This document shows, piece after piece, positions 1 to 36,995 of a stretch of 36,995 nt of DNA (positions within the stretch are counted from its first letter, which is position 1; every line of letters starts with the position of its first letter). This DNA is from a virus. The notes under the pieces are model-generated. The model saw only the letters and a list, made by a program, of their open reading frames with translations, did no database searches and was not told where the DNA came from. The stretch is from IMG/VR virus record IMGVR_UViG_3300032093_000391, positions 1 through 36,995 of that record. One strand, written 5' to 3'. The translations under genes were made by a program, and so were the position numbers.

Positions 1-59
1 TAGAAGGCGCCGCCCGGCGCCCCCACGATGTACCAGAACAAGCCTATCTGCTTTACCAT
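1..59 (-). CDS. Partial 5' end of a small phage gene (same as 36452-36601)
   Basis: The first 19 codons of a gene start with ATG at 59 on the minus strand and run off the left edge of the contig. They are identical to the beginning of the complete 49-residue gene at 36452-36601. The start overlaps the stop of the upstream gene by 7 bases, exactly as in the right-end copy. The truncation comes from the end of the contig and is not a mutation. It is the best evidence that base 1 follows base 36542 in the real genome. Confidence 0.7.
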   Translation of the reverse strand, partial: MVKQIGLFWYIVGAPGGAF

Positions 60-127
60 TGGTTGCGGTCTCCCCTGTCTAGGCTAGGCCACTGATGCAC
101 CGCCGGGCGGCCTGTGCGGTCTGGCAT
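1..127. repeat. Left copy of exact 127-base terminal duplication
   Basis: Bases 1-127 match 36543-36669 base for base. The next base differs (C at 128, T at 36670). Imperfect similarity continues to base 277 and then disappears. An exact match of 127 bases that starts at the contig's first base is what an assembler with a 127-base word leaves at a branch point. It therefore probably marks the join of a circular or circularly permuted genome rather than a biological terminal repeat. Confidence 0.85.
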
Positions 128-277
128 CTCAAACACGGCGCCGGGCTTTTTGTCTGTGGTCAGGTCCCAATCATTGCGCCATAGGCGCACGGCCTCAATG
201 GGGTTGTGCGCTTCCACTACAAGGCTCATGTCGTCGCCGTTCTCGTCATCGGAATAGACTAGGTATATGCGTGTCAT
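53..277 (-). CDS. Small phage protein, allele or paralogue A (74 aa)
   Basis: I recognise no named family. The protein begins MTRIYLVYSDDENGDD, is acidic and rich in aromatic residues, and has no membrane segment. The start at 277 follows a GGGAGG ribosome site that lies inside the end of the preceding gene, with only 3 bases between the two genes, so they are co-translated members of one operon. A near-identical protein is encoded at 36595-36819. The two differ at only 4 of 74 residues (D15N, E28D, T41S, K43V), although their upstream genes are unrelated. The carboxyl-terminal third is identical in DNA as well, because it lies within the 127-base exact match. Confidence 0.8.
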   Translation of the reverse strand: MTRIYLVYSDDENGDDMSLVVEAHNPIEAVRLWRNDWDLTTDKKPGAVFEMPDRTGRPAVHQWPSLDRGDRNQW

Positions 278-280
278 GGT

Positions 281-502
281 TCATGCCTCCCGCATCGCAA
301 GGCGAATAGTGGTCAGGTTGAACCGGCCGCCGTCTGGCGTGCGCTCTCCCGCGTAATCCCGCGCCATGGCGCGCGCCGCGCGGTCTTTGGTGTTGTGTTG
401 CGTGATGTAATCCAGCATCGCGCGATACAGCCCCTCGTCATTGTGAAGCCACAAGCTGACATTCCACGCGTTCCATGAGCGATGGCCGTTGTATTGCTTC
501 AT
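281..502 (-). CDS. Small phage protein, possibly DUF7249-like (73 aa)
   Basis: A 73-residue basic protein with a WNAWNVSLWLHNDEGLY stretch near the start, followed by helical sequence rich in Ala and Arg. I associate this Trp-Asn-rich opening with a family of small phage accessory proteins (DUF7249 by memory, not verified). Its function is unknown. A GAGAGGGG ribosome site precedes the ATG at 502. The gene is the direct upstream partner of the 53-277 gene, with a 3-base gap, in the leftward small-gene operon. The corresponding position at the right end of the contig holds a different gene, so this slot is variable between the two junction variants. Confidence 0.75.
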   Translation of the reverse strand: MKQYNGHRSWNAWNVSLWLHNDEGLYRAMLDYITQHNTKDRAARAMARDYAGERTPDGGRFNLTTIRLAMREA

Positions 503-582
503 AACCCTGTTCCCCTCTCACTCAAGCCCTGATTGGCTTGGATGATGGCAAGCAAGCCTGCCATCGCCGAAGCTAACCAAGA

Positions 583-660
583 TCAGAAAACTAGAAGCCA
601 AACGAACAGCGCCAGAAAGAAAGCGCATATCGCAGCGTCGTGCAATAGATTATGTGACAT
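583..660 (-). CDS. Tiny single-pass membrane peptide (25 aa)
   Basis: The ATG at 660 lies one base after the stop of the 662-997 gene and opens a 25-codon frame. It encodes a short polar head (MSHNLLHD) followed by about 17 hydrophobic residues that would form one transmembrane helix. A GGAG sits about 8 bases before the ATG, inside the upstream gene. Tight coupling, a ribosome site and a helix-like composition support it; its small size is the main doubt. Between it and the next gene (503-582) there is only a 21-codon frame with an ATGA overlap and no good ribosome site. I do not call that frame. Confidence 0.4.
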   Translation of the reverse strand: MSHNLLHDAAICAFFLALFVWLLVF

Positions 661-661
661 G

Positions 662-997
662 TTAGGCGCTCCGCATTTTGGGCATATTGGCCAAGGCGCG
701 GCGCGCGTCTGCAATTGCGCTCCGCACCATGTCGCGGAAATACCCGTCGCGGTCTTTATGCGCGAAATCTGATGCAGAAGCATAAGCGCACGCGCTTAGG
801 TAATCCGTCGCAATCTCCGCGCCGTCTAACGTCACGCGCAAGCGCGCAATGAACCAATCCACCGCGCCAGAGCGCACCATTTCGATGTCGTCGTCGTTAT
901 CAAAACAATCCGCCGGGTCTGTATCGTCTGGCGTCACGTCGCACGTGATGCGAAAGCGCTCGGTTTCAAATGACCAGATAGTGTCCCAATGCCGCAT
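662..997 (-). CDS. Conserved-looking phage protein of unknown function (111 aa)
   Basis: This is the first gene of the leftward small-gene operon, next to the 998-1759 control region. I place the start at the ATG at 997 (MRHWDTIWSF) because GGAGGG lies 7-8 bases before it. A longer frame starting at 1078 has no such site. The protein is acidic in its first half and contains an ATDYLSACAY motif and a YFRDMVRSAIADAR segment, a pattern I have seen in hypothetical proteins of unrelated phages. It has no membrane segment and no catalytic motif I can name. Being first in the operon suggests early expression, which is inference. Confidence 0.75.
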   Translation of the reverse strand: MRHWDTIWSFETERFRITCDVTPDDTDPADCFDNDDDIEMVRSGAVDWFIARLRVTLDGAEIATDYLSACAYASASDFAHKDRDGYFRDMVRSAIADARRALANMPKMRSA

Positions 998-1357
998 AGT
1001 TTTTCCCTCCGAAAAATAGGCAATCCGTTTTGCCGATGTAGATTCTTTTACAGACCGATTATGGCAAGAATAAGGCAACCTAGAATTTATTACATGACAT
1101 TTTGGTAATGTGGGAGTAATGTTGCGTTAACCGAAAACGGAAAAAATAGGTGTTTTAGGCGTATGTATAGGTAGCCTAGGCGACAACCAGGCCGCGCGGG
1201 GCTATGTAGTTGGCGAAAAAGGCTTTTTTCATTTTTCCTAGGCTTTCTAGGTATTATTATATTAACCAACTGCCACTTAGATATTAATTAACATATGTAA
1301 AGTATAATGACCTATAGGATAGTTGTACTATCTCACTTGGGGGCGATGAAAAACGCA

Positions 1358-1393
1358 TGACCTAGAATGCCTAGATGACCTAGCGATGACCTA
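1358..1393. repeat. Array 1 of 9-base repeats (TGACCTA core)
   Basis: Exact TGACCTA copies start at 1358, 1376 and 1387. A degenerate unit (ATGCCTA) at 1367 preserves a 9-base step from 1358 to 1376. A solitary copy starts at 1308. Directly left of the array, 1343-1364 is a 22-base element that recurs at 1487-1508 with its central five A's replaced by five T's. Such closely spaced short direct repeats are typical of protein-binding iterons or operator clusters. Confidence 0.7.
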
Positions 1394-1501
1394 TCGCTCC
1401 CCAAGCCCCGCGCATCACGCCTATGCGTTACGTAACAGAACCCGTTGCGTATCATGTTAGCAGCTAGCTGGCGCCGTCGCGCTGGCGCGATGTTTTTCGC
1501 A

Positions 1502-1526
1502 TGACCTATTTGACCTAGATGACCTA
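1502..1526. repeat. Array 2 of 9-base repeats (TGACCTA core)
   Basis: Three exact TGACCTA copies at 1502, 1511 and 1520 are spaced exactly 9 bases apart. The array starts 144 bases from array 1 and has the same left flank (GCGATG, five identical bases, CGCATGACCTA). The duplicated arrangement of flank plus repeats suggests a binding region used twice. Read on the minus strand, it could also be a repeated three-residue peptide motif. Confidence 0.7.
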
Positions 1527-1546
1527 TCCGCGCGACCAGGCGGAAT

Positions 1547-1564
1547 GTTACGTTATAACGTAAC
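1547..1564. promoter_or_regulatory. 18-base perfect palindrome (operator-like)
   Basis: GTTACGTTATAACGTAAC is a perfect 18-base palindrome. A shorter relative, GTTACGTAAC, is at 1427-1436, and both are followed by AGA. The shared GTTACG/CGTAAC half-sites about 120 bases apart look like two operators for one dimeric DNA-binding protein, one on each side of the TGACCTA array. This is inference from symmetry only. Confidence 0.55.
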
Positions 1565-1596
1565 AGATTATGCTGCAATGCAACATAAACACCTGG

Positions 1597-1620
1597 ACAT
1601 CTGAATAGCTATTCAGATGT
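1597..1620. promoter_or_regulatory. 24-base perfect palindrome
   Basis: The half-site ACATCTGAATAG (1597-1608) is followed directly by its exact reverse complement (1609-1620). In RNA it could fold as a 10-pair stem with an AGCT loop. No T-run follows, so a simple terminator is unlikely. A strong dimer operator or a processing site is more likely. It lies 140 bases before the terminase small-subunit gene. Confidence 0.6.
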
Positions 1621-1725
1621 TCACGCCTGCCCCGCCCATCCGGCCGCGCGCCGAAGGCCGGGGGGAGGAGGGCCGGCGGGGACCCCGTCCCGGTCACGGA
1701 GGGTCCGCAAACAATTTTTTATTTT

Positions 1726-1753
1726 TTGCAAACCCAACCAGCCATGCTATACA
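1726..1753 (+). promoter_or_regulatory. Candidate late promoter, close to the terS start
   Basis: TTGCAA (1726-1731), a 16-base spacer and TATACA (1748-1753) preceded by TGC form a plausible extended -10 sigma-70 type promoter. Transcription would begin about 1760, which is the A of the terS start codon, giving a leaderless or nearly leaderless message. This fits the absence of any ribosome site before that ATG. An AT-rich tract (1711-1727) lies just upstream. Confidence 0.45.
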
Positions 1754-1759
1754 AAATCT

Positions 1760-2209
1760 ATGGCAGTCTTTTCGCTCCCCTATGAGCCGCGCAAATTGGA
1801 AGCCACCGAGGCGCGGCTTGAAGCCATCTATCACGCCGCGCGTAATGGATTGCGTGGCGAGGCGTTGGCGCTCGCATCCGGCATGACGCCGACCGAATAC
1901 CGCGCGCTGTGCGAGTTCGACCCGCTGGCGGCGCTGGCCGCGGAGAAGGGCCGGGCCGACGGCGAGATGGAAATGTCCAAGGTGCTGCATGACGCCGCCC
2001 GCGCCGGCGACGCCAAGGCGGCGCTGGATGTGCTGAAGCACGTCCATGGCTGGGTCGCCAAGCAGGCGGTGCAGGTCGAGGTCAACCAGACCATCTCCAT
2101 CACCTCCGCACTGCAAGAGGCCCAGCGGCGCGTCATCGAGGGGGTAACGGTGCCGGATGAAGACTTGCTGTCGTCGAATAGGGTAGAAAATGCAGACCAC
2201 ACGGTATAG
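1760..2209 (+). CDS. terS: Terminase small subunit-like
   Basis: DNA-recognition subunit of the packaging motor. The 149-residue protein opens with a helical region (EARLEAIYHAARNGL) and a helix-turn-helix-like segment (ALASGMTPTEYRALCEFDP). A helical oligomerisation region follows, with KAALDVLKHVHGW, a stretch typical of small terminase subunits. It lies immediately upstream of the large subunit and overlaps it by 20 bases, the usual arrangement. The start at 1760 has no ribosome site. The next in-frame Met lies well inside the protein, so I keep 1760 and suggest leaderless translation from the promoter at 1726-1753. As the first gene of the late operon it sets the left boundary of the virion genes. 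Confidence 0.8.
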   Translation: MAVFSLPYEPRKLEATEARLEAIYHAARNGLRGEALALASGMTPTEYRALCEFDPLAALAAEKGRADGEMEMSKVLHDAARAGDAKAALDVLKHVHGWVAKQAVQVEVNQTISITSALQEAQRRVIEGVTVPDEDLLSSNRVENADHTV

Positions 2210-3713
2210 CGCCGACGACGAAATGGAACTGATGAGCCGGCTGTGGACGCCGGCCATCAAGGACGACCCGCTGAAGTTCGTGTTGTTCGTGTTCCCGTGG
2301 GGCCAGCCTGGCACACCGCTGGAACACTTCGACGGCCCGCGCAAGTGGCAGCGCGAGGTGCTGCAACGCATCGCCGACCATGTGAAGCAGAACAACGGCA
2401 AGATCGACTTCGACACGCTTCGAATGGCGACATCATCCGGCCGCGGGATCGGCAAGTCGGCCTTAGTCAGTTGGCTGGTCATCTGGATGCTGACCACGCG
2501 GATTGGCTCGACAACCATCGTGTCGGCCAACTCCGAGGCGCAGCTTCGGTCGATCACATGGGCGGAAATTACCAAGTGGCTCTCGATGGCGCTTAACAGC
2601 CACTGGTTCGAGGTCAGCGCCACGCGGCTGATGCCGGCCAAGTGGCTGACGGAACTGGTGGAGCGCGACCTCAAGATGGGCACCCGGTACTGGGGCGTCG
2701 AGGGCCGGCTGTGGTCGGCGGAGAACCCCGACGCCTACGCGGGGGTCCACAACTTCGCCGGGGTCATGCTGGTGTTCGACGAAGCCAGCGGTATCGACGA
2801 CAGCATCTGGTCGGTCGCGGCGGGCTTCTTCACGGAGAACACGCCGCACCGCTTCTGGCTGGCGTTCAGCAACCCGCGGCGCAACAGCGGCTACTTCTAC
2901 GAGTGCTTCCACTCCAAGCGCGACTTCTGGGACACCAAGATCGTGGACGCGCGCACGGTCGAGCATACGGACAAGCAGGTCTATCAGCAGATCATCGACG
3001 AATACGGCCCCGACAGCACCCAGGCCCACGTCGAGGTGTACGGTCAGTTCCCCAACGCGTCCGACGACCAGTTCATCGGGGCCAGCACTGTCGACGACGC
3101 CATGCGGCGGCCGCAGCACAAAGACCCGTCGGCGCCCATCATCATCGGCGTGGACCCGGCACGGTTCGGGTCCGACAGCACGGTTATCGCCATCCGGCAG
3201 GGACGCGACATCGTGGCGATCAAGCGCCACAAGGGCGACGACACCATGACGGTGGTGGGCCACGTCATCGACGCCATCGAAACGTACAAGCCGGCGTTGG
3301 TGGTGATCGACGAGGGCGGCCTAGGCGCCGGCATCGTCGACCGGCTGAAGGAGCAGCGGTACAAGATCAAGGGGGTCAACTTCGGGAACAAGTCGAAGAA
3401 CCCGCTGATGTGGGGCAACAAGCGGGCCGAGATGTGGGGCGAGATGCGGACCTGGCTGAAGGACGCGTCCATCCCGCTGGACCGCTACCTCAAGAACGAC
3501 CTGACCGGGCCGATGATGAAACCGGACAGTAAAGGGACTATCTTCTTGGAAAGCAAAAAGGATATGAAGGCCCGCGGGCTGGCCAGTCCTGACGCGGCCG
3601 ACGCCATCGCGGTGACGTTTGCGTTTCCTGTGGCCCACCGGGAATTTGTTGACAGGGCACCGCGCAGGGCCTATGCTCCGGGCGGAATTTCAAACTCTTG
3701 GATGGGGGCGTAA
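2190..3713 (+). CDS. terL: Terminase large subunit (ATPase-nuclease)
   Basis: The packaging motor that pumps DNA into the prohead and cuts it. At 507 residues it has the usual length. The ATPase half shows a Walker A-like SSGRGIGKSA (residues 82-91) and a Walker B VMLVFDEAS (192-200, D197/E198). The RNase H-fold nuclease half shows IIGVDPARFG (D322), VVIDEGG (D374/E375) and DAADAIAV (D468/D471), a complete set of acidic residues. The start overlaps the small subunit. The Walker A is of the variant G-R-G-I-G-K-S type common in terminases. The mode of packaging cannot be told from the sequence. The permuted-looking ends would fit headful packaging. Confidence 0.95.
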   Translation: MQTTRYSADDEMELMSRLWTPAIKDDPLKFVLFVFPWGQPGTPLEHFDGPRKWQREVLQRIADHVKQNNGKIDFDTLRMATSSGRGIGKSALVSWLVIWMLTTRIGSTTIVSANSEAQLRSITWAEITKWLSMALNSHWFEVSATRLMPAKWLTELVERDLKMGTRYWGVEGRLWSAENPDAYAGVHNFAGVMLVFDEASGIDDSIWSVAAGFFTENTPHRFWLAFSNPRRNSGYFYECFHSKRDFWDTKIVDARTVEHTDKQVYQQIIDEYGPDSTQAHVEVYGQFPNASDDQFIGASTVDDAMRRPQHKDPSAPIIIGVDPARFGSDSTVIAIRQGRDIVAIKRHKGDDTMTVVGHVIDAIETYKPALVVIDEGGLGAGIVDRLKEQRYKIKGVNFGNKSKNPLMWGNKRAEMWGEMRTWLKDASIPLDRYLKNDLTGPMMKPDSKGTIFLESKKDMKARGLASPDAADAIAVTFAFPVAHREFVDRAPRRAYAPGGISNSWMGA

Positions 3714-3715
3714 CC

Positions 3716-4123
3716 ATGGCCTACACGAAACCAATCGGCGTAGCGTTCACCGATCAGGACATCAACGGCGCGAATGTTGTGCTGGTTGACGAGCAGCTTG
3801 GCTACACCGCCGCCGGGCAAGGCACTGTAACGCAGGATACCAGCAAGTCGACCGCGGTGACGCTGAACAAACCCGCTGGGCAGATCACGATGAACAACGC
3901 GTCGCTGGGCGCCACGACCAACGTGACGTTTACGCTGAACAACAGCTACATCAGCGCCAACGACGTGATCGTGTTGAACGTCAACGGCGGCACGACCGCG
4001 GCCTACAACGTCTACACCAGCGTCCTCGGCGCCGGCACGGCGTCTATCACGCTGCGGAACATCACGGCGGGCGCGCTGTCCGAAGCGGTGGTGCTGAACT
4101 TCGCGCTGATCCACTGCGCCTAA
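3716..4123 (+). CDS. Beta-rich putative virion protein (135 aa)
   Basis: I chose the ATG at 3716 (MAYTKPIG) over the one at 3698, because GGGGGCG precedes 3716 at a suitable distance and 3698 lies inside terL. The protein is almost all beta-strand-forming sequence rich in Thr, Asn, Val and Ala. It has a TLNKPAGQITMNNASL segment and ends with SEAVVLNFALI. I have seen this pattern in small proteins near the packaging genes of many environmental phages. An immunoglobulin-like decoration or fibre-base role is plausible, but no catalytic or binding motif is visible. It sits directly between terminase and portal gene groups. Confidence 0.7.
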   Translation: MAYTKPIGVAFTDQDINGANVVLVDEQLGYTAAGQGTVTQDTSKSTAVTLNKPAGQITMNNASLGATTNVTFTLNNSYISANDVIVLNVNGGTTAAYNVYTSVLGAGTASITLRNITAGALSEAVVLNFALIHCA

Positions 4124-4150
4124 CACTCTTACCGGCACAGCGGGGACGCG

Positions 4151-4408
4151 ATGGCCAAGAAAAGTGTTTCGCTGGCCGTAGGCCGAGGCGAGAAGCTACC
4201 GACCGATAAGGGTGCGGGCCTGACCGCCAAGGGCCGCGCCAAGTACAATCGTGAGACAGGCTCCAACCTGAAGCCTCCGGCCCCCAGCCCCAAGACCGAG
4301 GCGGACAAGGGGCGTAAAAAACGTTTTTGCGCTCGCATGGGCGGCGTGGTAGCCAAGGCTGAGAACGCCGACAGGGCGAAGGCCAGCATGAGAAGGTGGA
4401 AGTGCTAA
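4151..4408 (+). CDS. Small basic phage protein, DUF6321-like (85 aa)
   Basis: A Lys/Arg-rich protein with the sequence signature KGAGLTAKGRAKYNR, a Pro-rich linker and RFCARMGGV. This matches my memory of DUF6321 phage proteins (not verified by search). Its function is unknown. Strong basic charge and a place among packaging genes would fit binding to DNA or to the negatively charged portal/terminase, but that is inference. GGGGACG precedes the start. Its TAA stop shares one base with the ATG of the next gene, so translation is probably coupled. It is the first of three consecutive small basic proteins. Confidence 0.8.
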   Translation: MAKKSVSLAVGRGEKLPTDKGAGLTAKGRAKYNRETGSNLKPPAPSPKTEADKGRKKRFCARMGGVVAKAENADRAKASMRRWKC

Positions 4409-4569
4409 TGGCAAAACCGGGTCTATACGCCAACATCCACGCCAAACGGGAGCGCATCGCGGCCGGGTCTGGCGAGAAGATGCGTAAGGTCGGCTCCAAG
4501 GGCGCCCCTACCGCCGCGGCGTTTCGTGAATCTGCCAAGACGGCCAAGCCAGCCAAGAAGGGTAAGTGA
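4408..4569 (+). CDS. Small basic phage protein (53 aa)
   Basis: A 53-codon frame starts with ATG at 4408, overlapping the previous stop by one base (TAATG). The product starts MAKPGLYANIHAKRERIAAG, continues with SGEKMRKVGSKGAP and ends in a Lys/Ala-rich tail. This wording (YANIHAKR, GEKMRK.GSKGAPT) recurs in tiny proteins next to terminase or portal genes in several phages as far as I recall. The protein is strongly basic with no hydrophobic segment. Its function is unknown. Only one base separates it from the next gene. Confidence 0.8.
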   Translation: MAKPGLYANIHAKRERIAAGSGEKMRKVGSKGAPTAAAFRESAKTAKPAKKGK

Positions 4570-4570
4570 C

Positions 4571-4708
4571 ATGCCGCTGGTAAAGTCCACCTCCAAGGAC
4601 GCCTTCCGCAAGAACGTGAAGGCCGAAATTGCTGCCGGCAAGCCGGCAAAACAGGCTGTAGCCATCGCGTACGCAACCAAGCGCGCAGCGGCTAAGAAAG
4701 GCAAGTAA
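4571..4708 (+). CDS. Tiny basic phage protein (45 aa)
   Basis: Starts MPLVKSTSKDAFRKNVKAEI at 4571, one base after the previous stop. A longer frame from 4526 would run through the previous gene and is rejected. A basic amphipathic helix with a KQAVAIAYATKRAA core is a pattern I recognise from very small phage proteins encoded just before portal genes. It ends with TAATG, sharing one base with the portal start, so the three small basic proteins and the portal form one coupled translational chain. The biochemical role is unknown. Confidence 0.8.
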   Translation: MPLVKSTSKDAFRKNVKAEIAAGKPAKQAVAIAYATKRAAAKKGK

Positions 4709-6864
4709 TGGCCGCCAACGATGTAGAAGCCGCAGGAAAAGTATCGGACAGCGACGACAAGGATCGGCTGTCGGTCATGCGCCGGCGCTACACCATGGCG
4801 CTGTCGGCCTACTCGGACAGCCGCGAGGACGAACTGGACGACCTGCGCTTCATGGCCGGGTCGCCTGACAACCAGTGGCAGTGGCCGGCGGACGTGCTGG
4901 CGACCCGCGGGTCTGTGCAGGGTCAAACGATCAACGCGCGGCCGTGCCTGACGATCAACAAGCTGCCGCAGCATGTGCGCCAGGTGACCAACGAGCAGCG
5001 GCAGAACCGGCCGACCGGCAAGGTGATCCCGGCCGACGACCGCGCCGACGTGCGCGTGGCCGAGATATTTGACGGCATGGTGCGGCACATCGAGTATATC
5101 TCAGACGCCGACGTGGCTTACGACACGGCCTGCGACAACCAGGTCACCTACGGCGAAGGCTACATCCGCATTCTGACGGAGTACGCCCGCGAGGACAGCT
5201 TCGACCAGGACATCAAGATTGGGCGGGTGCGGAACTCGTTCTCCGTCTACATGGACCCGGCCATCCAAGACCCGTGCGGCGCCGACGCCGAATGGTGCTT
5301 CATCACCGAAGACGTGAGCAAGGCCGACTATGAACGCATGTTCCCAGATGCTGCGCCGATTTCTAGCCTCATGTCGCAAGGTGTGGGCGACCAGAGCCTT
5401 TCTCAATGGCTCTCGGAAGACATGGTACGTATCGCCGAATACTTCTACTACGAACACGAAAAAGCAACGCTGAACCTCTACCCCGACAACATTACAGCCT
5501 TTGCCAATTCGCCGCAGGACAAGCAACTGAAGGCGATGTTTGGCAAGCCGCTGCGTAGCCGCGCGGTCGACCGCAAGAAGGTCAAGTGGGTCAAGACCAA
5601 CGGGTTTGAGGTGCTGGAAGAACGCGATTGGGCAGGCAAATACATTCCCGTCGTGCGCGTAATCGGCAACGAGTTTGAGGTTGACGGTCAGCTTTACGTG
5701 TCGGGCCTTGTGCGGAACGCCAAGGACGCCCAGCGCATGTATAACTACTGGGTCAGTCAGGAAGCCGAAATGCTGGCTTTGGCCCCCAAGGCGCCCTTCA
5801 TTGGCTATGGCGGCCAGTTTGAAGGCTACGAGATGAACTGGAAAACGGCCAACACGAACAACTGGCCGTACCTAGAGGTCAATCCCGACGTTACGGACGG
5901 CGCTGGAAGCCCTCTGCCGCTTCCGCAGCGCGCACCGCCGCCGCTGGCCCAGACCGGCCTCATACAAGCTAAATTGGGCGCTGCTGACGACATCAAAGGC
6001 ACCACAGGCCAGTACGACAGCAGCCTCGGGGCGCAGAGCAACGAGCGGTCTGGCCGGGCCATTCTGGCGCGCGAGAAGCAGGGCGACACGGGCACCTACC
6101 ATTACGTCGACAACCTGTCCCGCGCGATCCGGCACGTCACCCGGCAGCTTGTTGACATGATCCCCAAGATTTACGACACCGCCCGCGTGGCGCGTATCGT
6201 GGGCCTAGACGGCGAAGTTGGCATGGTGCGGATCAATCCGACCCAGCCGGAGCCGGTGAAGGAAATCCGCGACGAAAACGGGCTTGTGATCGACAAGATT
6301 TACAACCCGTCGGTCGGCGTTTACGACGTGTGCGTGACCACTGGGCCAGGCTACATGACCAAGCGTCAGGAAGCCTTGGACGCCATGTCGATGCTTCTGC
6401 AATCCAACCCGCAGCTTTGGACGGTCGCCGGTGATCTGTTCATCAAAAACATGGATTGGCCGGGCGCGCAGGAGATGGCGGCGCGGTTCGCTAAGATTAT
6501 TGATCCAAAGGTTATGGAAGGCGAAGACCAATCGCCAGAGATGCAGATGGCCAAGATGCAGATCGAAGCCCTGACCAAGGAACTGAACCAAGTCGTCGGC
6601 ATGTTGCAGCGCGTCGAGCAGTCGATCGAGGCGCAGGAAGTGCAGATCAAGGCCTACGACGCCGAAACCAAGCGCATTTCCGCGGTCCAGGCCGGCATGA
6701 CGCCCGATCAAATCCAAGACATTGTGATGGGCACCATCGCAGCAGCCATGGATACCGGCGATTTGGTTGGCCCCGGCGGCCCAGTTTCACGTGAAATGCC
6801 GGAAATGCAACCGGAAATGGGCGGTATGCCGCCTCAAATGCCGCCAGGAGGCCCAATGCAATGA
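4708..6864 (+). CDS. Portal protein, P22 gp1-like
   Basis: Forms the ring at the capsid vertex through which DNA enters and leaves. At 718 residues it is close to P22 gp1 in length. Family features are an N-terminal region with LDDLRFMAGSPDNQWQWP and RPCLTINKLP, the VTNEQRQNRP segment, a stem and wing region in the middle, a helical region (about 600-650) of the coiled-coil barrel type and a low-complexity Met/Pro/Gly tail. The start shares a base with the preceding stop. Codon use drifts toward more A/T in the second half, continuing into the AT-richer genes that follow. This hints at mosaicism inside or just after this gene. Confidence 0.9.
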   Translation: MAANDVEAAGKVSDSDDKDRLSVMRRRYTMALSAYSDSREDELDDLRFMAGSPDNQWQWPADVLATRGSVQGQTINARPCLTINKLPQHVRQVTNEQRQNRPTGKVIPADDRADVRVAEIFDGMVRHIEYISDADVAYDTACDNQVTYGEGYIRILTEYAREDSFDQDIKIGRVRNSFSVYMDPAIQDPCGADAEWCFITEDVSKADYERMFPDAAPISSLMSQGVGDQSLSQWLSEDMVRIAEYFYYEHEKATLNLYPDNITAFANSPQDKQLKAMFGKPLRSRAVDRKKVKWVKTNGFEVLEERDWAGKYIPVVRVIGNEFEVDGQLYVSGLVRNAKDAQRMYNYWVSQEAEMLALAPKAPFIGYGGQFEGYEMNWKTANTNNWPYLEVNPDVTDGAGSPLPLPQRAPPPLAQTGLIQAKLGAADDIKGTTGQYDSSLGAQSNERSGRAILAREKQGDTGTYHYVDNLSRAIRHVTRQLVDMIPKIYDTARVARIVGLDGEVGMVRINPTQPEPVKEIRDENGLVIDKIYNPSVGVYDVCVTTGPGYMTKRQEALDAMSMLLQSNPQLWTVAGDLFIKNMDWPGAQEMAARFAKIIDPKVMEGEDQSPEMQMAKMQIEALTKELNQVVGMLQRVEQSIEAQEVQIKAYDAETKRISAVQAGMTPDQIQDIVMGTIAAAMDTGDLVGPGGPVSREMPEMQPEMGGMPPQMPPGGPMQ

Positions 6865-20064: not shown

Positions 20065-22131
20065 ATGGTAGATTACACTATCGCGAACCAAATCCGTCCC
20101 TTCCAACTGCCTGACATTGCCGGCATCGCGGGCGCCATGCAGGGGTTGGAACTGAACCGTATGCGGTCGCAACAACTTCAAGCCGCCGAGCAGGAACGCA
20201 ACGCGCTGCGCGGTCTTATGGCTGACCCAAACTTTGATATTTCTTCACCTGAAGCCTCGCGCCGCATCTTGCAAGTGGCCCCGACCATTGGAGGACCGGC
20301 GTATAACGCCGCCCTTTCAGGACGCCGCGAACTACGCCAAAGCGAAACGGCTGCGGCAGAGGCAACACTGAAAAATTTTGAGTTAAGCCGTGAAAGTTTG
20401 CGTGGTATTTCGGCGCTCCCTGAAGGCGACCGTCAGGCCGCTTGGGAGGCTTGGCGCGCGCGGACTGAAGCTACTGTGCCGGGCACTCGCGGGTTTATCC
20501 CGCCCGCGTATTCAGATGAGGCTTTTGCGGCGATGATTTCTAAAGCCGATGAAATCGCCAAAAACCTGACTGAGCGGCCAGTGGTAACTCAAGTGCCAGG
20601 ATTTCCGCCATTTTTGACGAACCCGCGCACAGGCGTAACACGACCGGCCACAGAAGCGAATGCTCCGCCAGCCGCACCGCCCGCCGCGCCCCGCGCCGAA
20701 GGGCCTCCAATGTCGCCGGGCCAAACAGCCGCGGCACCGCGGTCGCAATCTACCGATCCTTTGTTGATTGACGCGGCTATTCGTCGAAACGAAGGCACCG
20801 CGCGCAATCCCGCGTCGTCGGCTGTTGGCCCATATCAGTTTATCGACAGCACATTTGTGGACCAGTTCCGGCGCAGTTTTCCCGACGTAGCGCGAAACCT
20901 GCCGCCGGAACAGATTTTGACATTCCGCGGCGCCCAAACGCCTGACGGCCGGCGCGTGGAAGATGTTATGGGGCCAGCGCTTACCACGCAAAATCAGCAG
21001 GCGCTGGTGCAGGCAGGGTTTGCGCCGACAGCGGGTAACACTTACCTCGCGCATTTCTTGGGTTCTGGCGGCGCGCGAGCCGTTTTGCGGGCCGATCCAA
21101 ACACGCCTATATCTCAGTTGGTGTCCCGCGAAGCTATCGCCGCCAACCCGACTATTTTAGGTGTCCCCGGCGTAACCGCTGGGCAGATCGTGCAGTGGGC
21201 TAACAACACAATTGATATGGGTCCGCGCGACGCGCGGCGGGCGCTAACCACGCCGAATGCCATGGCGGCGCCGGGCGCTACCACCAACGCCATGCTGGCG
21301 CCGCAAGACGCCACGGCGATGGGACAACCGCAATTGCCGACGTTCGCTCCGCCGCGCTCGATAGCAGAGGCGTTATATCAAAAAAACATGATGGATTTAG
21401 CGGTTGACCTAGAAAAGAAGCGCCTCGAAGCCGAGCGCCGCCGCGGCGAACAGCCTGAGCGAGTGCAAGAAGCGGGGCAAACATCTGAAGCGCAAAGGCG
21501 CGGGGCATTGACCGCCGAGCAAGAGCGCGACGAGCGTAAAAAGCAAGAAGGCCGCACAAACGTCAACACCACACTTGGTAAAATGTTTGCGGCTTACGAG
21601 CGCCTAAACGAAATTGGCGGCATCCCCAGCGAGACAAGAGGTACGGGCGGTAACATCGCCGCGTATGCTGCGGGCACCGCCCCCGGCCAAGCAGTCGGAC
21701 AAGCGCTGGGTACCCGCGCTCAATCTGTGCGAAACGAACTTCAAAGCCTTGCGCGCACACTCATAACCGACATTAAAAATTCGACGGGGATGTCGGCGCA
21801 GGAAATGAACTCCAACGTCGAATTGCAACAGATGTTAGCGGCAGTGTCTAGCCCAACGCAGTCTATTGAGTCTGTGCGCGCCATCATTCAAAACCTTAGC
21901 GAGCGGTATGGGCTAGGCCAAACATTTGCGCCGCCCGCCCCCGCGCAAGCCCCCGCCGCCGCGCCAGCGACGCGCCCGGCTGAAGGTGTGCCGGGTCCGC
22001 GGCGCGGGGCGGCGGCCCCGGCGGGGCGCCCAACCTTAGAACAGTTCCTTGAGCGCGCCCGGCCCGCCAACCCTAACGCATCAATCGAAGACCTTACGGC
22101 GTACTACAATCGCACATACGGGGGCCGCTGA
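20065..22131 (+). CDS. Ejection protein with lysozyme-like transglycosylase domain
   Basis: 688 residues. The N-terminal part is helical (about 20-150). Then a Pro/Ala linker leads into a lytic-transglycosylase-like domain (about 230-370). It has ARRNEG-type spacing (AIRRNEGTARNPASSAVGPY, candidate catalytic E243), QFIDSTFVDQF and AHFLGSGGARAVL. The third part is charged and helical and ends in an Ala/Pro-rich tail with PTLEQFLERARP. Internal virion proteins with such domains are injected and cut peptidoglycan locally during DNA entry. A strong AAGGAG lies before the ATG, and the stop shares a base with the next start (TGATG). Confidence 0.75.
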   Translation: MVDYTIANQIRPFQLPDIAGIAGAMQGLELNRMRSQQLQAAEQERNALRGLMADPNFDISSPEASRRILQVAPTIGGPAYNAALSGRRELRQSETAAAEATLKNFELSRESLRGISALPEGDRQAAWEAWRARTEATVPGTRGFIPPAYSDEAFAAMISKADEIAKNLTERPVVTQVPGFPPFLTNPRTGVTRPATEANAPPAAPPAAPRAEGPPMSPGQTAAAPRSQSTDPLLIDAAIRRNEGTARNPASSAVGPYQFIDSTFVDQFRRSFPDVARNLPPEQILTFRGAQTPDGRRVEDVMGPALTTQNQQALVQAGFAPTAGNTYLAHFLGSGGARAVLRADPNTPISQLVSREAIAANPTILGVPGVTAGQIVQWANNTIDMGPRDARRALTTPNAMAAPGATTNAMLAPQDATAMGQPQLPTFAPPRSIAEALYQKNMMDLAVDLEKKRLEAERRRGEQPERVQEAGQTSEAQRRGALTAEQERDERKKQEGRTNVNTTLGKMFAAYERLNEIGGIPSETRGTGGNIAAYAAGTAPGQAVGQALGTRAQSVRNELQSLARTLITDIKNSTGMSAQEMNSNVELQQMLAAVSSPTQSIESVRAIIQNLSERYGLGQTFAPPAPAQAPAAAPATRPAEGVPGPRRGAAAPAGRPTLEQFLERARPANPNASIEDLTAYYNRTYGGR

Positions 22132-23789
22132 TGGTTGATATTGTCGATCCGTTTCGCCAACCATCGCCGACCATTGTAGACCCTTTTTCGGGCGTCGCCG
22201 TTACCGATCCTTTCGCCGGCGCCGCAGCGCCCGACACGTCAGTCGCGCAGAACGTCGGCGTGGCTGCACGGGCGGCGTATCCGCAGGCCACGGCGGCCGG
22301 TCTTGGCGCGCTGGTAGGGTCGCGCTTTGGCGCGCCTGGCGCCCGCGTCGGCGCCGCGCTTGGCCCTCTCGCGTTAGGTTTGGGCGACATCGCCGCAACC
22401 GGATACAACGTCGCGGCGCCGTACATCGGTACGCCGCAGGTGTCCACGCCGTCTGAACTGATCCAAAGCGGGTTTGAGCGCGGGGGCTTTGGCGCCCGCC
22501 CGCAGACGCCCGAGCAAGAACTGTTGAGCGCGGGCGTTTCCGGTGGGGCAAGCGGTGCCGCGCAAGCCGCTGCGTTTAACGTGCTGGCCCGGCGGCTAGG
22601 CCCTACCGTGGCGCGGAACGTGTTCGCCCAGTTAGGGCAGCAACCCGTTGTCCAAGCCGGCGCAGGCGCAGGCGCGGCCATGGCGCCTACGGCGCTGCGC
22701 GAGTATGCCGACGTGGAAGACCCTTACGCGCTTATGGCGTCCAGCTTGGTTGGCGCCGTTTTGGGCGGTAAAGCCACGGCTGCTGCCGGCAACGTCGGCC
22801 GGGCGGCGATGGACCTACCGCGCATGGCGACGACGCCGACGACAACCGAAATACGCAACCAGGCCCAGCGGGCGTATCGGCAAGCTAAATCGGCGGGGGT
22901 AACGTATGACCCAGCAGCAGTCACCCAGTTTGGAGACGATCTAGCTGTTACGCTGCGTAATGAAGGGTTTGACGCCACTCTACACCCGAAAGCAAGCGCG
23001 GCACTGCAACGTATTCAAGAAGCTGGCCAGCCTGCTGCGCCGGGGGCGGCTGCCGCGCCAGTGTCTTTTGAAGACCTTGACATCTTGCGCCGTGTTGCGC
23101 GCGGCGCCCGCCTTAGCGACAACGCCGATGAGCGTCGCATCGGGCGAATGATCATAGACAAATTGGATAGTTTTGCGCTTCGGCCGCCGTCAAACGCGGT
23201 CTTAAGCGGCGACGAAAAGGGCGCCGGCACTGCTATCCGCGAAGCGCGCAGCCTGTGGTCGCGCATGAGCAAAAGCAGCGAAATTGAAGATTTGGTGGAG
23301 AACGCCAAACTGTCCGCGCAAGGCGTTGGCGGGCGGATGGATGAGGCCATTCGCGCGCAGTTTGCCTCTTTGGCCCGCGACATTAACAAAGGCCGCAACC
23401 CTGGCTTTACCCCAGAAGAAGTGGCCAACATCGAGCGCATCGCCAAGGGCGAAACGATGCGCTTTGGCACTCGCGCTGTTAGCGCGCTGGCGCCTAGTTC
23501 TACCCTTCGCGGCCTGACTACGGCGGCCACGCAGGCGGGCGGCATGGCGCTGGCGGCGAATGATCCTTACGCAGCAGCGTTTGCTATCCCAACCATGGCG
23601 GTGGGCATGGGCGCCCGCGGCGCCCGAAACGCAATGGCGCAGATAGACGCTGCTCGATTGGCCGCCGGTGTGCGGCGCGGTGATGTGACAGCGCCCTTTG
23701 CGGCGCGCCCGGTGCCATTGATGTCGCCTACGTTGCAGCAGATACTGTCGCAGACGGAACCCGAACCCGCCAACGCTTTTGCTCGCTAG
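22131..23789 (+). CDS. Large ejection / internal virion protein (552 aa)
   Basis: Third protein of the ejection set, in the position of P22 gp16/gp20. It opens with Pro/Asp-rich repeats (IVDPFRQPSPTIVDPFSG, VTDPFAG). Several Ala/Gly-rich hydrophobic segments (about 45-90 and 135-240) could insert in membranes, then a helical region (about 255-470). It ends with another Ala/Gly-rich part and the PF.RPVP motif region. No enzyme motif is visible. Composition and gene order fit a protein that helps form a passage across the inner membrane. Assignment rests on context, since this group evolves fast. Confidence 0.65.
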   Translation: MVDIVDPFRQPSPTIVDPFSGVAVTDPFAGAAAPDTSVAQNVGVAARAAYPQATAAGLGALVGSRFGAPGARVGAALGPLALGLGDIAATGYNVAAPYIGTPQVSTPSELIQSGFERGGFGARPQTPEQELLSAGVSGGASGAAQAAAFNVLARRLGPTVARNVFAQLGQQPVVQAGAGAGAAMAPTALREYADVEDPYALMASSLVGAVLGGKATAAAGNVGRAAMDLPRMATTPTTTEIRNQAQRAYRQAKSAGVTYDPAAVTQFGDDLAVTLRNEGFDATLHPKASAALQRIQEAGQPAAPGAAAAPVSFEDLDILRRVARGARLSDNADERRIGRMIIDKLDSFALRPPSNAVLSGDEKGAGTAIREARSLWSRMSKSSEIEDLVENAKLSAQGVGGRMDEAIRAQFASLARDINKGRNPGFTPEEVANIERIAKGETMRFGTRAVSALAPSSTLRGLTTAATQAGGMALAANDPYAAAFAIPTMAVGMGARGARNAMAQIDAARLAAGVRRGDVTAPFAARPVPLMSPTLQQILSQTEPEPANAFAR

Positions 23790-23798
23790 AGGCCGCCC

Positions 23799-24029
23799 AT
23801 GACGCAAGACTTGTACAACATCATCGTGGGCATAGCCGGCGCCGCGATTGGTTGGATGATGAAAGTGGTGTGGGAGAGCGTCAGGGCGCTGCAGACCGAC
23901 ATGAAGGCCATTGAGCGCGAACTGCATACAAGCTACGTCAGCAAGGACGACTACAGGGCCGACATCCAAGAAATCAAAGAGATGTGCAAAGCGATCTTTG
24001 AGCGGCTTGAGCGTAAGGCCGACAAGTAA
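23799..24029 (+). CDS. Small membrane-anchored coiled-coil protein (76 aa)
   Basis: One N-terminal hydrophobic segment (LYNIIVGIAGAAIGWMMKVVW, about residues 5-25) is followed by a charged coiled coil (about 28-76). The topology resembles XhlA-type holin partners and other small lysis-associated proteins. It is the first gene of the lysis region. AGAGG precedes the start, and its stop shares one base with the next start (TAATG). The function is inferred from topology and location. Confidence 0.7.
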   Translation: MTQDLYNIIVGIAGAAIGWMMKVVWESVRALQTDMKAIERELHTSYVSKDDYRADIQEIKEMCKAIFERLERKADK

Positions 24030-24493
24030 TGGAACTGCCCAAGCTGACGCCTGTTGTGCAGTTTGCGACGGCCAGCTTCGCGCTGGCTGTTGGCGGCTAC
24101 TCTGCGGGTGAAAAGTTTGGCTGGTTCAAGAACGAGATTATCGCGTGGGCGCCGGAGCATTTCAGGATCGTCGACACCAAGATTGGCCAGCCCGTTACGG
24201 TAACAGTGGCGCGGGTCAAAAAGCGCGACGACTGTTCGGTCGAAGGGTTCGAGGTGACCGTGCGCGATGGCGCTGGCGTTATCCACCAGGCCACACCAAG
24301 CATGACGCGGTTCACCGGTCCCGCTGGCCCTGCGATCGACACCTTCACCTACCTGCTGGACATTGCCGACAAGGAAACCATCGCCCAAGGACGGGCGACG
24401 CTGTTGGCTACTATTAAGTACAAGTGTCCTGAAGGTGAACGGACTGTCACCTATCCTCGACACCAAAACCTGACCTTCATGTTGGAGCGATAG
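24029..24493 (+). CDS. Membrane-anchored protein of the lysis region (154 aa)
   Basis: A hydrophobic segment near the N-terminus (about 10-25) precedes a soluble beta-rich domain that would face the periplasm if the helix is an anchor. It includes VTVTVARVKKRDDCSVEGFE and contains two Cys (in RDDCSVE and KYKCPEG) that could form a disulphide. No known spanin or endolysin motif is seen. The gene is translationally coupled to the previous one (TAATG) and followed one base later by the holin gene. A spanin-like or lysis-regulatory role is possible. The sequence does not prove it. Confidence 0.65.
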   Translation: MELPKLTPVVQFATASFALAVGGYSAGEKFGWFKNEIIAWAPEHFRIVDTKIGQPVTVTVARVKKRDDCSVEGFEVTVRDGAGVIHQATPSMTRFTGPAGPAIDTFTYLLDIADKETIAQGRATLLATIKYKCPEGERTVTYPRHQNLTFMLER

Positions 24494-24494
24494 G

Positions 24495-25013
24495 ATGGAC
24501 CAGCTTCTGAACCTTGTCCGCACGGTCGCGCCGTCCATCGCCAGCGCCGTCGGCGGCCCTCTGGCCGGCATGGCCACACGCGCCATTTCTGAGGCTCTGC
24601 TGGGCAAGCCAGACGGCACCGAGGCCGAACTGACTGAGGCCGCGGCCAAGGCCACACCGGAACAGCTTCTGGCGCTGAAGACCGCCGAGCAGGACTTCGC
24701 GGTCAAGATGCGCGAGTTGGACATCGACCTAGAACGCATCGCCAACGCCGACCGTGACAGCGCCCGCAACCGCGAGGTAGCGGCGAAGGATTGGACCCCG
24801 CGCATTTTGGCTGGGCTAATCACAGCGGGGTACTTCGGCGCCCTGTTCTACATGCTGCAAAACGGCCTGCCGCAGCACGGCGGGTCTGAGGCCTTGTTGA
24901 TCATGCTGGGTACCCTTGGCACGGCTTGGGGCGGCGTTGTAGCGTATTACTTTGGCAGCAGCGCCGGCAGTAAAGAGAAGACCGACGCGATGAATAGGAT
25001 GGCTCGCAGGTGA
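24495..25013 (+). CDS. Holin, three-helix (GTA holin-like)
   Basis: 172 residues. An N-terminal amphipathic segment (MDQLLNLVRTVAPSIASAVG) leads to a long helical region with ATPEQLLALKTAEQDFAVKM and the charged DRDSARNREV. Two clear membrane helices follow (about 103-122 and 132-154) and a short basic tail. The order and the central D-x-x-SAR motif match the 3TM holin family found in gene transfer agents and phages. It forms holes in the inner membrane to release the endolysin. GGAG lies before the ATG, and the stop overlaps the GTG start of the endolysin. Confidence 0.85.
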   Translation: MDQLLNLVRTVAPSIASAVGGPLAGMATRAISEALLGKPDGTEAELTEAAAKATPEQLLALKTAEQDFAVKMRELDIDLERIANADRDSARNREVAAKDWTPRILAGLITAGYFGALFYMLQNGLPQHGGSEALLIMLGTLGTAWGGVVAYYFGSSAGSKEKTDAMNRMARR

Positions 25014-25621
25014 TCACTTCCAAGTTAATGCAGGGTTTGGGTTGGACCGATCCGGTCGAATGGGCCGCAGTGTTGGACGACGCCTGCAACCGCCACGGCA
25101 TCATCACGTCCAAGCGCATCGCCATGTTCCTAGCCAACACGGGCCACGAGAGCAACGGCGGCCGCGCCATCCGCGAGAACTTGAACTACAAGCCCTCTGC
25201 GCTGGTGGCGCAGTGGCCCAAGTACTTCTCGCCCGAATACGCCGAAGAGGTGGGCCGCACGGACGCGCACCCGGCGGATCAGAAGGCCATTGCCGAGGCG
25301 GCTTATGGCGGGCGCATGGGCAACAAGAACCCTGGCGACGGCTGGCGCTTCATCGGCCGCGGGCTAATGCAGACGACCGGGCGGTACAACTACGAAAAGC
25401 TGGCGCAGACCATGGGTATGCTGGTAGATGATCTGCCAAGCTGGATCGAGACTAAAGAAGGCGCCGCCGAGAGCGCGGCGTTCTACTGGGCCGCCAACGG
25501 CTGCAACGAACTGGCCGACGCTGACGCGCTGGACAAGTGCCGGCAGCGGATCAACGGCGGCCTGATCGGCATAGTGGATGTGCGCGAGCGGTATATTAAG
25601 GCGCTGGGCTTGTTGACGTAA
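25010..25621 (+). CDS. Endolysin, glycoside hydrolase family 19
   Basis: Muralytic enzyme. The GTG start at 25010 overlaps the holin stop. The 203-residue protein matches GH19 phage endolysins. FLANTGHESNGG (candidate catalytic E47) and a second acid in RENLNY (E56) are followed by GGRMGNKNPGDGWRFIGRG and MQTTGRYNY, the substrate cleft. ESAAFYWAANGCNELAD and a C-terminal ERYIKAL complete the fold. It has no signal peptide or anchor, so export depends on the holin. Its last 26 bases overlap the convergent 25596-25784 gene on the other strand. Confidence 0.9.
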   Translation: MITSKLMQGLGWTDPVEWAAVLDDACNRHGIITSKRIAMFLANTGHESNGGRAIRENLNYKPSALVAQWPKYFSPEYAEEVGRTDAHPADQKAIAEAAYGGRMGNKNPGDGWRFIGRGLMQTTGRYNYEKLAQTMGMLVDDLPSWIETKEGAAESAAFYWAANGCNELADADALDKCRQRINGGLIGIVDVRERYIKALGLLT

Positions 25622-25784
25622 GCAGTTCCCGCCGCTCGCGCATGGCGCGGAGCGCGGTGAACCGCTGGTGCATACGGATCATCAGGGTAGTGCGACGCTC
25701 GCCCTGACGTTCTTCTTCGATTAGGTTGGCCAACTCGTCTTCGCGCAGGCTGCTCAACCGGGCGTTCAATTCCCGCCAATTCAT
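25596..25784 (-). CDS. Small helical protein at the end of the helicase operon (62 aa)
   Basis: Begins MNWRELNARLSSLREDELA and is highly charged, with RTTLMIRMHQRFTALRAMRER. This is a pattern I recall from short proteins that accompany phage SNF2-type helicases. It has an ATGA overlap with the end of the helicase gene, which makes co-translation and a functional link likely. It is convergent with the endolysin and overlaps its last 26 bases, so no terminator fits between. The function is unknown. A helix-rich adaptor of the helicase is a guess. Confidence 0.75.
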   Translation of the reverse strand: MNWRELNARLSSLREDELANLIEEERQGERRTTLMIRMHQRFTALRAMRERRELLTSTSPAP

Positions 25785-27139
25785 TCTTTCGGTCCCTTCA
25801 GTTCGTCCAAGGCCATGTCTGAGATGGCGCGTTTGTCATAAAGCCCGGCCCATATACGCTCGTCAATGGTTTTGTTGCAGAGCAGGACATAGACCCAGAC
25901 CGGCGCGGTCTGGCCGCCGCGGTGCAGCCGCCCGACGACCTGCTCGTACAGTTCGAGCGACCACGGGATTGACATCAGCACCATCTTGTTGCCGCCATAC
26001 TGAAGGTTCAGCCCGTGCCCGGCCGACTTGGGGTGGATCAACAGCAGTTCGACCTTGCCGGCGTTCCACCGGGCGATGGCGTCGGGGTCGTCGATCGTCA
26101 CGGCATGGGGGTAGCGCCGGCGCAACTCGGCCAGTTCTTCCTTGTAATTGTAAACGACGATGGTGTTGTCGCGCTGGTTGCCCTCTAAAATATCGTGCAG
26201 CAGGTCGAATTTATGGTAAGAAAACCAGACCGCTTCCTGAATGGGTGTAAATTTTCCGGCGATCTCATGTGCTAGGCTCTGGCTATTGTAAACGAACCCG
26301 CTGGACATCTGCTGTAGCTTGCTGGTGACCGCAGCGGCTGACAGCGCCGTGATCTGCTGGCCGTCCAACTGCACCAAGAAGTCCTTCTTCATCTGCTCAT
26401 ACGGCAGGCGGTCGGTCATGTTGCAGCGCATCTCAACCACGTTCAGCGGCGGCAGCTTGTCCTGGTACTCGCCTGGCTCCAGCACGAATGTGGCTGGGCG
26501 AATGGCGTCCATGACCGCAGCCAGCGCGTCCTTGCGCGGCGCCCACTCGCCGTATTCGCGGTTGATGCAGACAAAATACTTCTGCAAGAACGCGCCCTTA
26601 GACCGGCCCAGCAGCGCCTGATCCACCATCTTGCACTGGCCAAACACGTCCTCAAGACCGTTGCTGGTGAAGCTGCCGGTCAGGCCCCAGCGGTATTTAA
26701 ACCAGCCGATGATCTTCTCCAGCGCCTTGAAGCGCTTGCCGGCGGGGTTCTTCAGCCGGGTCAACTCGTCGAACACGATGCCGTCAAACGGCCCGATCCC
26801 GCCGGGGATGCGTTCAATGTTGTCGTAGTTCGTCACCACCACCTGCGCGTCGCCCGCGAAGGCGTCCACGCGCTGCTTGGGCGTCCCGACGGCCACAGCC
26901 ACCTTCATGTCCGGCGCCCACTTGGGCGCCTCGACCGGCCAGACATCCGTGCAGACGCGCTTCGGCGCCAGCACCAGCCAACGCTTGACGTGCCCGTCGG
27001 CCAGCATGGCTTGCATGGCGGTCAGCGTGATAGCCGTCTTGCCCGCCCCCACCGGGGCTAAGATCATCGCGCGGTCGTGCGCGTAAAGGAAGTCCGCCGC
27101 GGTATCTTGGTAGGGCCTTAACCGCAATTCGTTGCCCAT
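25781..27139 (-). CDS. SNF2/DEAD-type helicase
   Basis: A 452-residue ATP-dependent DNA translocase or helicase of superfamily 2. Start chosen at ATG 27139 (MGNELRLRPYQDTAADF), because GAAGGAG precedes it by about 12 bases and the Q-motif-like RPYQ is at the right place; a frame extending to 27262 lies inside the VRR-NUC gene. Motifs: Walker A APVGAGKT (28-35), TNYDNI, DELT box (124-127), LTGSF, HPKSAGHGLNLQYGG and the SNF2-like EQVVGRLHRGGQT. Its start overlaps the VRR-NUC gene by 22 bases. Phages often keep this pair, probably for replication or recombination repair. Confidence 0.9.
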   Translation of the reverse strand: MGNELRLRPYQDTAADFLYAHDRAMILAPVGAGKTAITLTAMQAMLADGHVKRWLVLAPKRVCTDVWPVEAPKWAPDMKVAVAVGTPKQRVDAFAGDAQVVVTNYDNIERIPGGIGPFDGIVFDELTRLKNPAGKRFKALEKIIGWFKYRWGLTGSFTSNGLEDVFGQCKMVDQALLGRSKGAFLQKYFVCINREYGEWAPRKDALAAVMDAIRPATFVLEPGEYQDKLPPLNVVEMRCNMTDRLPYEQMKKDFLVQLDGQQITALSAAAVTSKLQQMSSGFVYNSQSLAHEIAGKFTPIQEAVWFSYHKFDLLHDILEGNQRDNTIVVYNYKEELAELRRRYPHAVTIDDPDAIARWNAGKVELLLIHPKSAGHGLNLQYGGNKMVLMSIPWSLELYEQVVGRLHRGGQTAPVWVYVLLCNKTIDERIWAGLYDKRAISDMALDELKGPKE

Positions 27140-27393: not shown

Positions 27394-27420
27394 AAAATTC
27401 TTTTACCCCCGATTTAGGAC

Positions 27421-27449
27421 TTGTGCAACAGGTTCTGTTGCGATATACG
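27421..27449 (+). promoter_or_regulatory. Candidate promoter with overlapping dyad in divergent spacer
   Basis: The 84-base spacer between the VRR-NUC and Cas4-like genes holds GCAACAG (27425-27431), GTT and CTGTTGC (27435-27441), a perfect 7-base inverted repeat. For the rightward operon, TTGTGC (27421-27426), 17 bases and TATACG (27444-27449) form a moderate sigma-70-like promoter whose spacer contains the dyad, an arrangement typical of repression. A leftward candidate (TTGCAC, 17 bases, TAAAAG) overlaps the same dyad but is weak. Confidence 0.45.
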
Positions 27450-27477
27450 GATGCCACACACTTCGAGGGGAAGTCAA

Positions 27478-35886: not shown

Positions 35887-36464
35887 GGGTTCCCCCATTG
35901 TTCGGCCATCGCGTCGGCGATGCCTTGGAATGTCGCGCTGCGTATTTTCCACCGATCCGCAGAGGGCGGCAGGTTGTACCATTGCGGCAGGCTGCGCCCT
36001 GACTTGGTGACGTGCCGCGCGCCCTTGCCGACAATGTTGGTTGGCGTCAGGTGCGGCAGGCCCTTCAGCCATAGGCAAGTCGTTTTGGTCGCCTCATGGC
36101 CAAACTGCCAAGGCTGGATTACCTGATCAGGCCTCCTGATCCGGCTTGATATGACGCTGACCGGGTTCTCCAGCGCGATGCGGGCGATGGGCGCGGCCAG
36201 CAGCAGGCGCACGAAGTCCAAGGCCTCGGCTTGTTCCTGCGCCTTGTCCTTGAACCAGCGCGCCCCGCTGACGGCCAAGTGAGTGCAGGGCGGATGGGCG
36301 ATCATTAAATCCCACCCATCGCCTAGAATGTCTTGCACCGGGCCTTGGTAGTGCGGGCCGGGCGTTTCGCTTGGCAGCAGGTCGCAGGATAGGGCGTCAT
36401 GCCCTCGCGCGCGAAAAGCATCCCGCACGGCGCCGGAGTATTCGCAGGCAATTAAGACGCGCAT
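35880..36464 (-). CDS. DNA cytosine methyltransferase-like protein (194 aa)
   Basis: Starts MRVLIACEYSGAVRDAF (SAM-binding motif I-like, ExSG), then SCDLLPSETPGPHYQG and DLMIAHPPCTHLA (PPC at 58-60, catalytic Cys60 position). It continues with ALENPVSVIS (E99-N100-P101, the ENV-like motif VI), KTTCLWLKGLP and GIADAMAEQW. This is the cut-down C5-methyltransferase-like family seen in phages. It keeps the Cys and Glu but lacks an obvious target-recognition domain, so it may modify free nucleotides, act on DNA with another subunit, or protect the genome. Overlaps the 49-aa gene by 13 bases. Confidence 0.8.
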   Translation of the reverse strand: MRVLIACEYSGAVRDAFRARGHDALSCDLLPSETPGPHYQGPVQDILGDGWDLMIAHPPCTHLAVSGARWFKDKAQEQAEALDFVRLLLAAPIARIALENPVSVISSRIRRPDQVIQPWQFGHEATKTTCLWLKGLPHLTPTNIVGKGARHVTKSGRSLPQWYNLPPSADRWKIRSATFQGIADAMAEQWGNPC

Positions 36465-36601
36465 AGGGCGGCCCTTTCATGCTGCGCCAGCACGGCGCGC
36501 AAGATTTCGTCAGCGTCGGCCTTGGTCGGCCATGGGGTGCCATAGAAGGCGCCGCCCGGCGCCCCCACGATGTACCAGAACAAGCCTATCTGCTTTACCA
36601 T
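36452..36601 (-). CDS. Small phage protein (49 aa)
   Basis: ATG at 36601 overlaps the stop of the upstream gene by 7 bases, and GGGGAG lies about 10 bases before it. The product starts MVKQIGLFWYIVGAPGGAFY and ends in a helical ADEILRAVLAQHERAA region. Its first 19 codons recur at 1-59. It lies between the variable 74-aa gene and the methyltransferase-like gene, and overlaps the latter by 13 bases. The function is unknown. Confidence 0.75.
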   Translation of the reverse strand: MVKQIGLFWYIVGAPGGAFYGTPWPTKADADEILRAVLAQHERAALCAS

Positions 36602-36669
36602 TGGTTGCGGTCTCCCCTGTCTAGGCTAGGCCACTGATGCACCGCCGGGCGGCCTGTGCGGTCTGGCAT
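36543..36669. repeat. Right copy of exact 127-base terminal duplication
   Basis: Identical to bases 1-127. It is followed by a first mismatch at 36670, with imperfect similarity to 36819. It covers the start of the 49-aa gene and the 3' end of the 74-aa gene. Unlike the left copy it sits inside the contig, with 326 bases after it. Confidence 0.85.
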
Positions 36670-36819
36670 TTCAAAAACGGCGCCGGGCTTCACGTCGCTG
36701 GTCAGATCCCAATCGTTGCGCCATAGGCGCACGGCATCAATGGGGTTGTGCGCCTCCACTACAAGGCTCATGTCGTTGCCGTTTTCGTCGTCGGAATAGA
36801 CTAGGTATATGCGTGTCAT
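36595..36819 (-). CDS. Small phage protein, allele or paralogue B (74 aa)
   Basis: The second version of the gene at 53-277 (70 of 74 residues identical). I place the start at ATG 36819; a longer frame to 36897 would run through the upstream gene and adds unrelated sequence. It has an ATGA overlap with the upstream partial gene, whereas the left copy has a 3-base gap to a different gene. So the same cassette is joined to two different neighbours. The function is unknown. Confidence 0.8.
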   Translation of the reverse strand: MTRIYLVYSDDENGNDMSLVVEAHNPIDAVRLWRNDWDLTSDVKPGAVFEMPDRTGRPAVHQWPSLDRGDRNQW

Positions 36820-36995
36820 GCTGCACCGCCACGGGCTTCGGCGATGGCGATACGGGCCTGACGCACCATCTCGGCAGCAGGGGAATCGTCTTCCCATTCA
36901 ATGCCGTCATCACGCTCAATTTGCCAAATCAGCGCATGTAGCGCAGCCAGCAGCTTTGGCGCGGCCGCGATCAGCGCCGCGTCGGCCGCGCGCTG
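36816..36995 (-). CDS. Partial helical phage protein, C-terminal 59 residues
   Basis: An open frame enters from the right edge (minus strand) and stops at 36816. The visible end reads DAALIAAAPKLLAALHALIW, then IERDDGIEWEDDSPAAEMVR and ends with ARIAIAEARGGAA. The AAPxLLxAL motif followed by an ARxAIAxA end is a widespread pattern in small phage proteins of unknown function. The ATGA overlap with the 74-aa gene supports it. Its start lies outside the contig. No equivalent exists at the left copy, where the neighbour is the 281-502 gene. Confidence 0.75.
   Translation of the reverse strand, partial: QRAADAALIAAAPKLLAALHALIWQIERDDGIEWEDDSPAAEMVRQARIAIAEARGGAA

Follow-up and report, generated by a model that had tools for sequence, protein, structure and literature searches.

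Two ends of a phage contig

The window, which is the whole stretch of DNA analysed here, comprises an entire virus record of 36,995 bases. Pfam searches identified a P22-type portal protein, a large terminase (Terminase_6N at 21.6 bits, just below the cut-off of 22), and a family A DNA polymerase. Among the closest annotated phages found are Phage DSL-LC05 (OR003940.1, genome 37.6 kb) and Caudoviricetes sp. MW202483.1 (genome 38.8 kb), whose portal proteins are 73% and 78% identical, respectively, to that of the window. However, their DNA matches start only at window positions 2240 and 1833, and neither phage has a DNA match in the junction region, i.e., where the two ends of the window would meet. 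Elsewhere in the window, a gene at 4408-4569 encodes a 53-aa protein (phrog_16028); its DNA matches short segments of cyanophages, a Pelagibacter phage, and a Roseobacter phage at 74-79% identity, although these phages have little else in common with that stretch.

The two ends of the window form a direct repeat of 283 bases at 94% identity, the sole family longer than 43 bases among the 12 direct-repeat families of the window, and thus not a repeat by chance. Bases 1-127 match 36543-36669 exactly, and the first mismatch falls at position 128, a C at the left end (allele A) and a T, at 36670, at the right end (allele B). Another 150 bases, 128-277, contain the 14 mismatches between the two ends, 10 of which are at third codon positions. 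The ends show no relationship from 284 on, where an ungapped comparison has 137 mismatches over 170 positions, and the similarity stops at the start codon of a 74-aa gene. The two 74-aa proteins differ at four positions (D15N, E28D, T41S, and K43V) and have no family in Pfam or PHROGs. A preliminary description, made from the letters of the window, had given the exact duplication, the 70/74 identity of the gene copies, and the loss of similarity past the start codon; our end comparison reproduced all three to the base. If mismatches were as frequent in 1-127 as in 128-277, 127 consecutive bases would be free of them with a probability of about 4e-6. Hence, the clean 127 bases need an explanation of their own.

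Table 1. Features at the two ends of the window and at the join between them
Feature	Coordinates	Strand	Evidence
First copy of the exact 127-base match; putative branching k-mer that starts the contig	1..127	.	Exact match, first mismatch at 128
74-aa gene, allele A; no family match	53..277	-	No Pfam or PHROGs match
Neighbour gene of allele A, 73 aa, DUF7249 / phrog_871	281..502	-	Pfam, PHROGs
49-aa gene, intact here, cut at 59..1	36452..36601	-	End comparison; uninterrupted in L001 and L002
Closure point between 36542 and base 1; circular map of 36,542 bp	36542..36543	.	Single 260-base junction in each of L001, L002, and L003
Second copy of the exact 127-base match; contig back at its own start	36543..36669	.	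Exact match to 1..127
Allele B of the 74-aa gene; 70 of 74 residues as in allele A	36595..36819	-	End comparison
326-base tail, alternative strain allele, outside the main map	36670..36995	.	End comparison, relatives, junction counts
Neighbour gene of allele B (AAPxLL), phrog_1273; truncated at the contig end	36816..36995	-	PHROGs

The join between 36542 and base 1 in other contigs

A search of viral contigs with the 74-aa protein yielded 24 loci. Three of these (L001, L002, and L003), from sample numbers that differ from that of the window (3300042691, 3300008450, and 3300008266, respectively), run without a gap across 36542/1. Over a 260-base junction, all three are 100% identical to the join of 36542 to base 1 into allele A, and each whole contig contains the 127-mer once, the junction into A once, and the junction into B never. 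Three other contigs therefore carry the join as continuous DNA, which supports the closure at about 36,542 bases that had been proposed from the window itself. The same proposal held that a gene cut at 1-59 is completed at 36452-36601; joining 36542 to 1 indeed restores this 49-aa gene.

The three contigs (G001, G002, and G003, carrying L001, L002, and L003, respectively) were also compared with the window along their length. G002 matches 21313-36542 and then runs on through 1-440; compared with the window's own right end, it shows 14 mismatches, which are the 14 differences between A and B. G001 covers 36320-36542 plus 1-4921 with one mismatch, and G003 covers 32474-36542 plus 1-2546 but lacks 77 bases (36390-36466). 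In L003 (2488-3132), this deletion fuses the 49-aa gene in frame to the methyltransferase-like gene that comes next (phrog_757), creating a 214-aa frame.

These alignments bear on whether the repeat is a true tandem duplication, i.e., a single genome of more than 36,995 bp with two 74-aa genes, each with its own upstream neighbour. Such a genome would account for the presence of both copies in one contig, and the exact B allele was not seen alone elsewhere. We nevertheless consider it very improbable. G001 and G003 have both flanks around a single copy of the repeat, so these genomes are without a tandem duplication at this place. A duplication would be expected as two copies in near-identical genomes too, and we found one copy each in G001, G002, and G003. 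Moreover, none of the 24 loci contains two 74-aa genes (tblastn). We therefore rejected this explanation, which would also need the repeat to equal the assembler's k of 127 by coincidence, both in the window and in a second record, G009 (see below).

A match of 127 bases and its probable relation to the assembler

For nine other near-full-length relatives, we determined the longest exact direct match between the first and the last 3 kb. In four of the nine (G007, G009, G012, and G013), this match is exactly 127 bases long and starts at base 1. The second copy reaches the contig end in G007, G012, and G013, while G009 mismatches first at base 128 and then continues for 44 divergent bases, the same anatomy as in the window. 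The remaining five differ from 127 (G004: 126, G006: 123, G011: 110, G010: 22, and G008: 11), which counts against reading 127 as k. Two papers report JGI assemblies made by metaSPAdes with -k 33,55,77,99,127 and hence a largest k of 127 (PMC7311315 and PMC11584781). We infer that the window's record was likewise assembled with a largest k of 127. Circular closure at this k should leave the first k bases of the contig repeated exactly, as they are in the window. The repeat length thus looks like an assembler signature, although our literature search for an end-repeat signature found no paper that states it for 127 bases. As this length agrees with the assembler's k, it tells nothing about how far the homology truly extends; 127 is only a minimum imposed by k.

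The breaks flanked by 127 bases lie at very different distances from the start of the large terminase gene: 2,190 bases in the window, 16,535 in G012, 22,184 in G013, 25,526 in G007, and 30,367 in G009. They are at different map places and therefore mark no single physical end. A 283-base direct repeat at 94% identity at two contig ends might otherwise suggest genuine physical terminal repeats at the ends of a linear phage genome, with copies that have diverged. We regard this as extremely unlikely. In known phages, replication keeps the copies of a terminal repeat identical, so the divergence of the window's copies after 127 bases counts against it, as do the scatter of the breaks in five records (2,190 to 30,367 bases ahead of the gene for the large terminase) and the three contigs that run through the supposed ends. 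Direct terminal repeats are identical copies at fixed genome ends; here, the copies diverge and the breaks are scattered among relatives, and we rejected this candidate. A circular map would fit headful packaging. On the terminase gene itself, we noted that in L031 (7509-8064; contig families as for L011 and L013) a 164-aa ORF, HNH homing endonuclease-like by eye, lies after the large terminase gene. This ORF is followed by a second copy of the terminase gene's last 68 bases, identical to the terminase end of the window.

When two strains have a stretch longer than k in common, a de Bruijn graph merges them there and splits them at the first difference. With this in mind, we conclude that the near-repeat is very probably the closure of a circular map followed by extension into a slightly different, co-occurring strain, an ordinary event that involves no real duplication. 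To a de Bruijn assembler run at k values up to 127, the 127-mer at 1-127 would be a branching vertex with two exits, A (C at 128) and B (T at 36670). The contig would start at the last shared 127-mer, leave along A, round the circle, and re-enter the vertex at 36543-36669. It would then be extended for 326 bases along B, presumably the minor branch, and stop. A and B would be the alleles of two strains present together, with different genes beside the 74-aa gene, and no single molecule would be expected to carry both.

Both parts of this reading have counterparts. Like the k-mer-length end overlap of circular contigs (metaSPAdes, largest k 127), the window has exactly 127 matching bases from base 1, as do G007, G012, and G013; unlike plain closures, which have no tail, it continues after the second copy into a divergent tail of 326 bases (44 bases in G009). 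Strain forks in viral-population assembly graphs, as presented in PMC11443906, likewise have a shared stretch longer than k and then two alleles, whereas in the window the circularity of the map brings both exits into one contig. The same paper describes de Bruijn assemblers as unable to tell which contigs to pair across a conserved region (PMC11443906). The contig ends of G009 (L116 and L117) provide a second record with a forked closure, a sign that forked closures recur in the collection.

Alleles A and B and the variable interval beside them

In relatives of the window, the 74-aa gene occurs once, and the genes beside it vary. Searches with tblastn placed the DUF7249 gene in 5 of the 24 loci (L001, L002, L003, L020, and L021) and a gene resembling that of the tail in 3 (L011, L013, and L023; 43-46% protein identity); both counts are lower bounds (L002 stops inside the interval), and the 24 loci are not independent strains, as some look like near-duplicates (e.g., L011 and L013). 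In L023, the tail-like gene (43% protein identity) abuts the 74-aa gene, the same arrangement as in the window tail. The varying neighbours, the abutting gene in L023, and the lack of any locus among the 24 with two 74-aa genes support the earlier suggestion that the right-end tail is an allele from a second strain. Counting against a strain fork, a 43-base piece of the tail allele had no match in any other viral contig searched.

A search with the partial tail protein matched a single contig, L107, at 86% identity. L107 belongs to a distant phage, with a terminase only 36% identical to that of the window, and this best match would suit a tail that is a chimera with an unrelated phage and not an allele of the same lineage. 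We give a chimera next to no credence and rejected it: for its first 150 bases, the tail runs on within the same 74-aa gene, 91% identical to allele A and altered mainly at third codon positions, and tail-like genes occupy the same site in the relatives L023 (directly abutting), L011, and L013.

Returning to two strain alleles on a circular map, we examined the interval next to the fork. An ORF at 1760-2209 has no PHROGs match and is, from its place before the large terminase gene, a small-terminase candidate. From the start of the 74-aa gene to the start of this candidate, the distance ranges from 1,483 bases (L001, L003, and the window) to 2,692 bases in the 22 of 24 loci that have both. The gene content of this 1.5-2.7 kb interval varies among strains. 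It is conceivable, if rather doubtful, that the interval is a hotspot where the lineage swaps small accessory genes at the start of the 74-aa gene; the fork would then mark an active cassette slot, perhaps with a role in counter-defence.

We suggest that the window should be read as a circular map of 36,542 bp, the last 453 bases being neither a duplication nor extra genes. For contigs elsewhere, this offers a simple diagnostic: where the first k bases recur exactly and are then followed by divergent sequence, circular closure combined with a strain fork is suggested.
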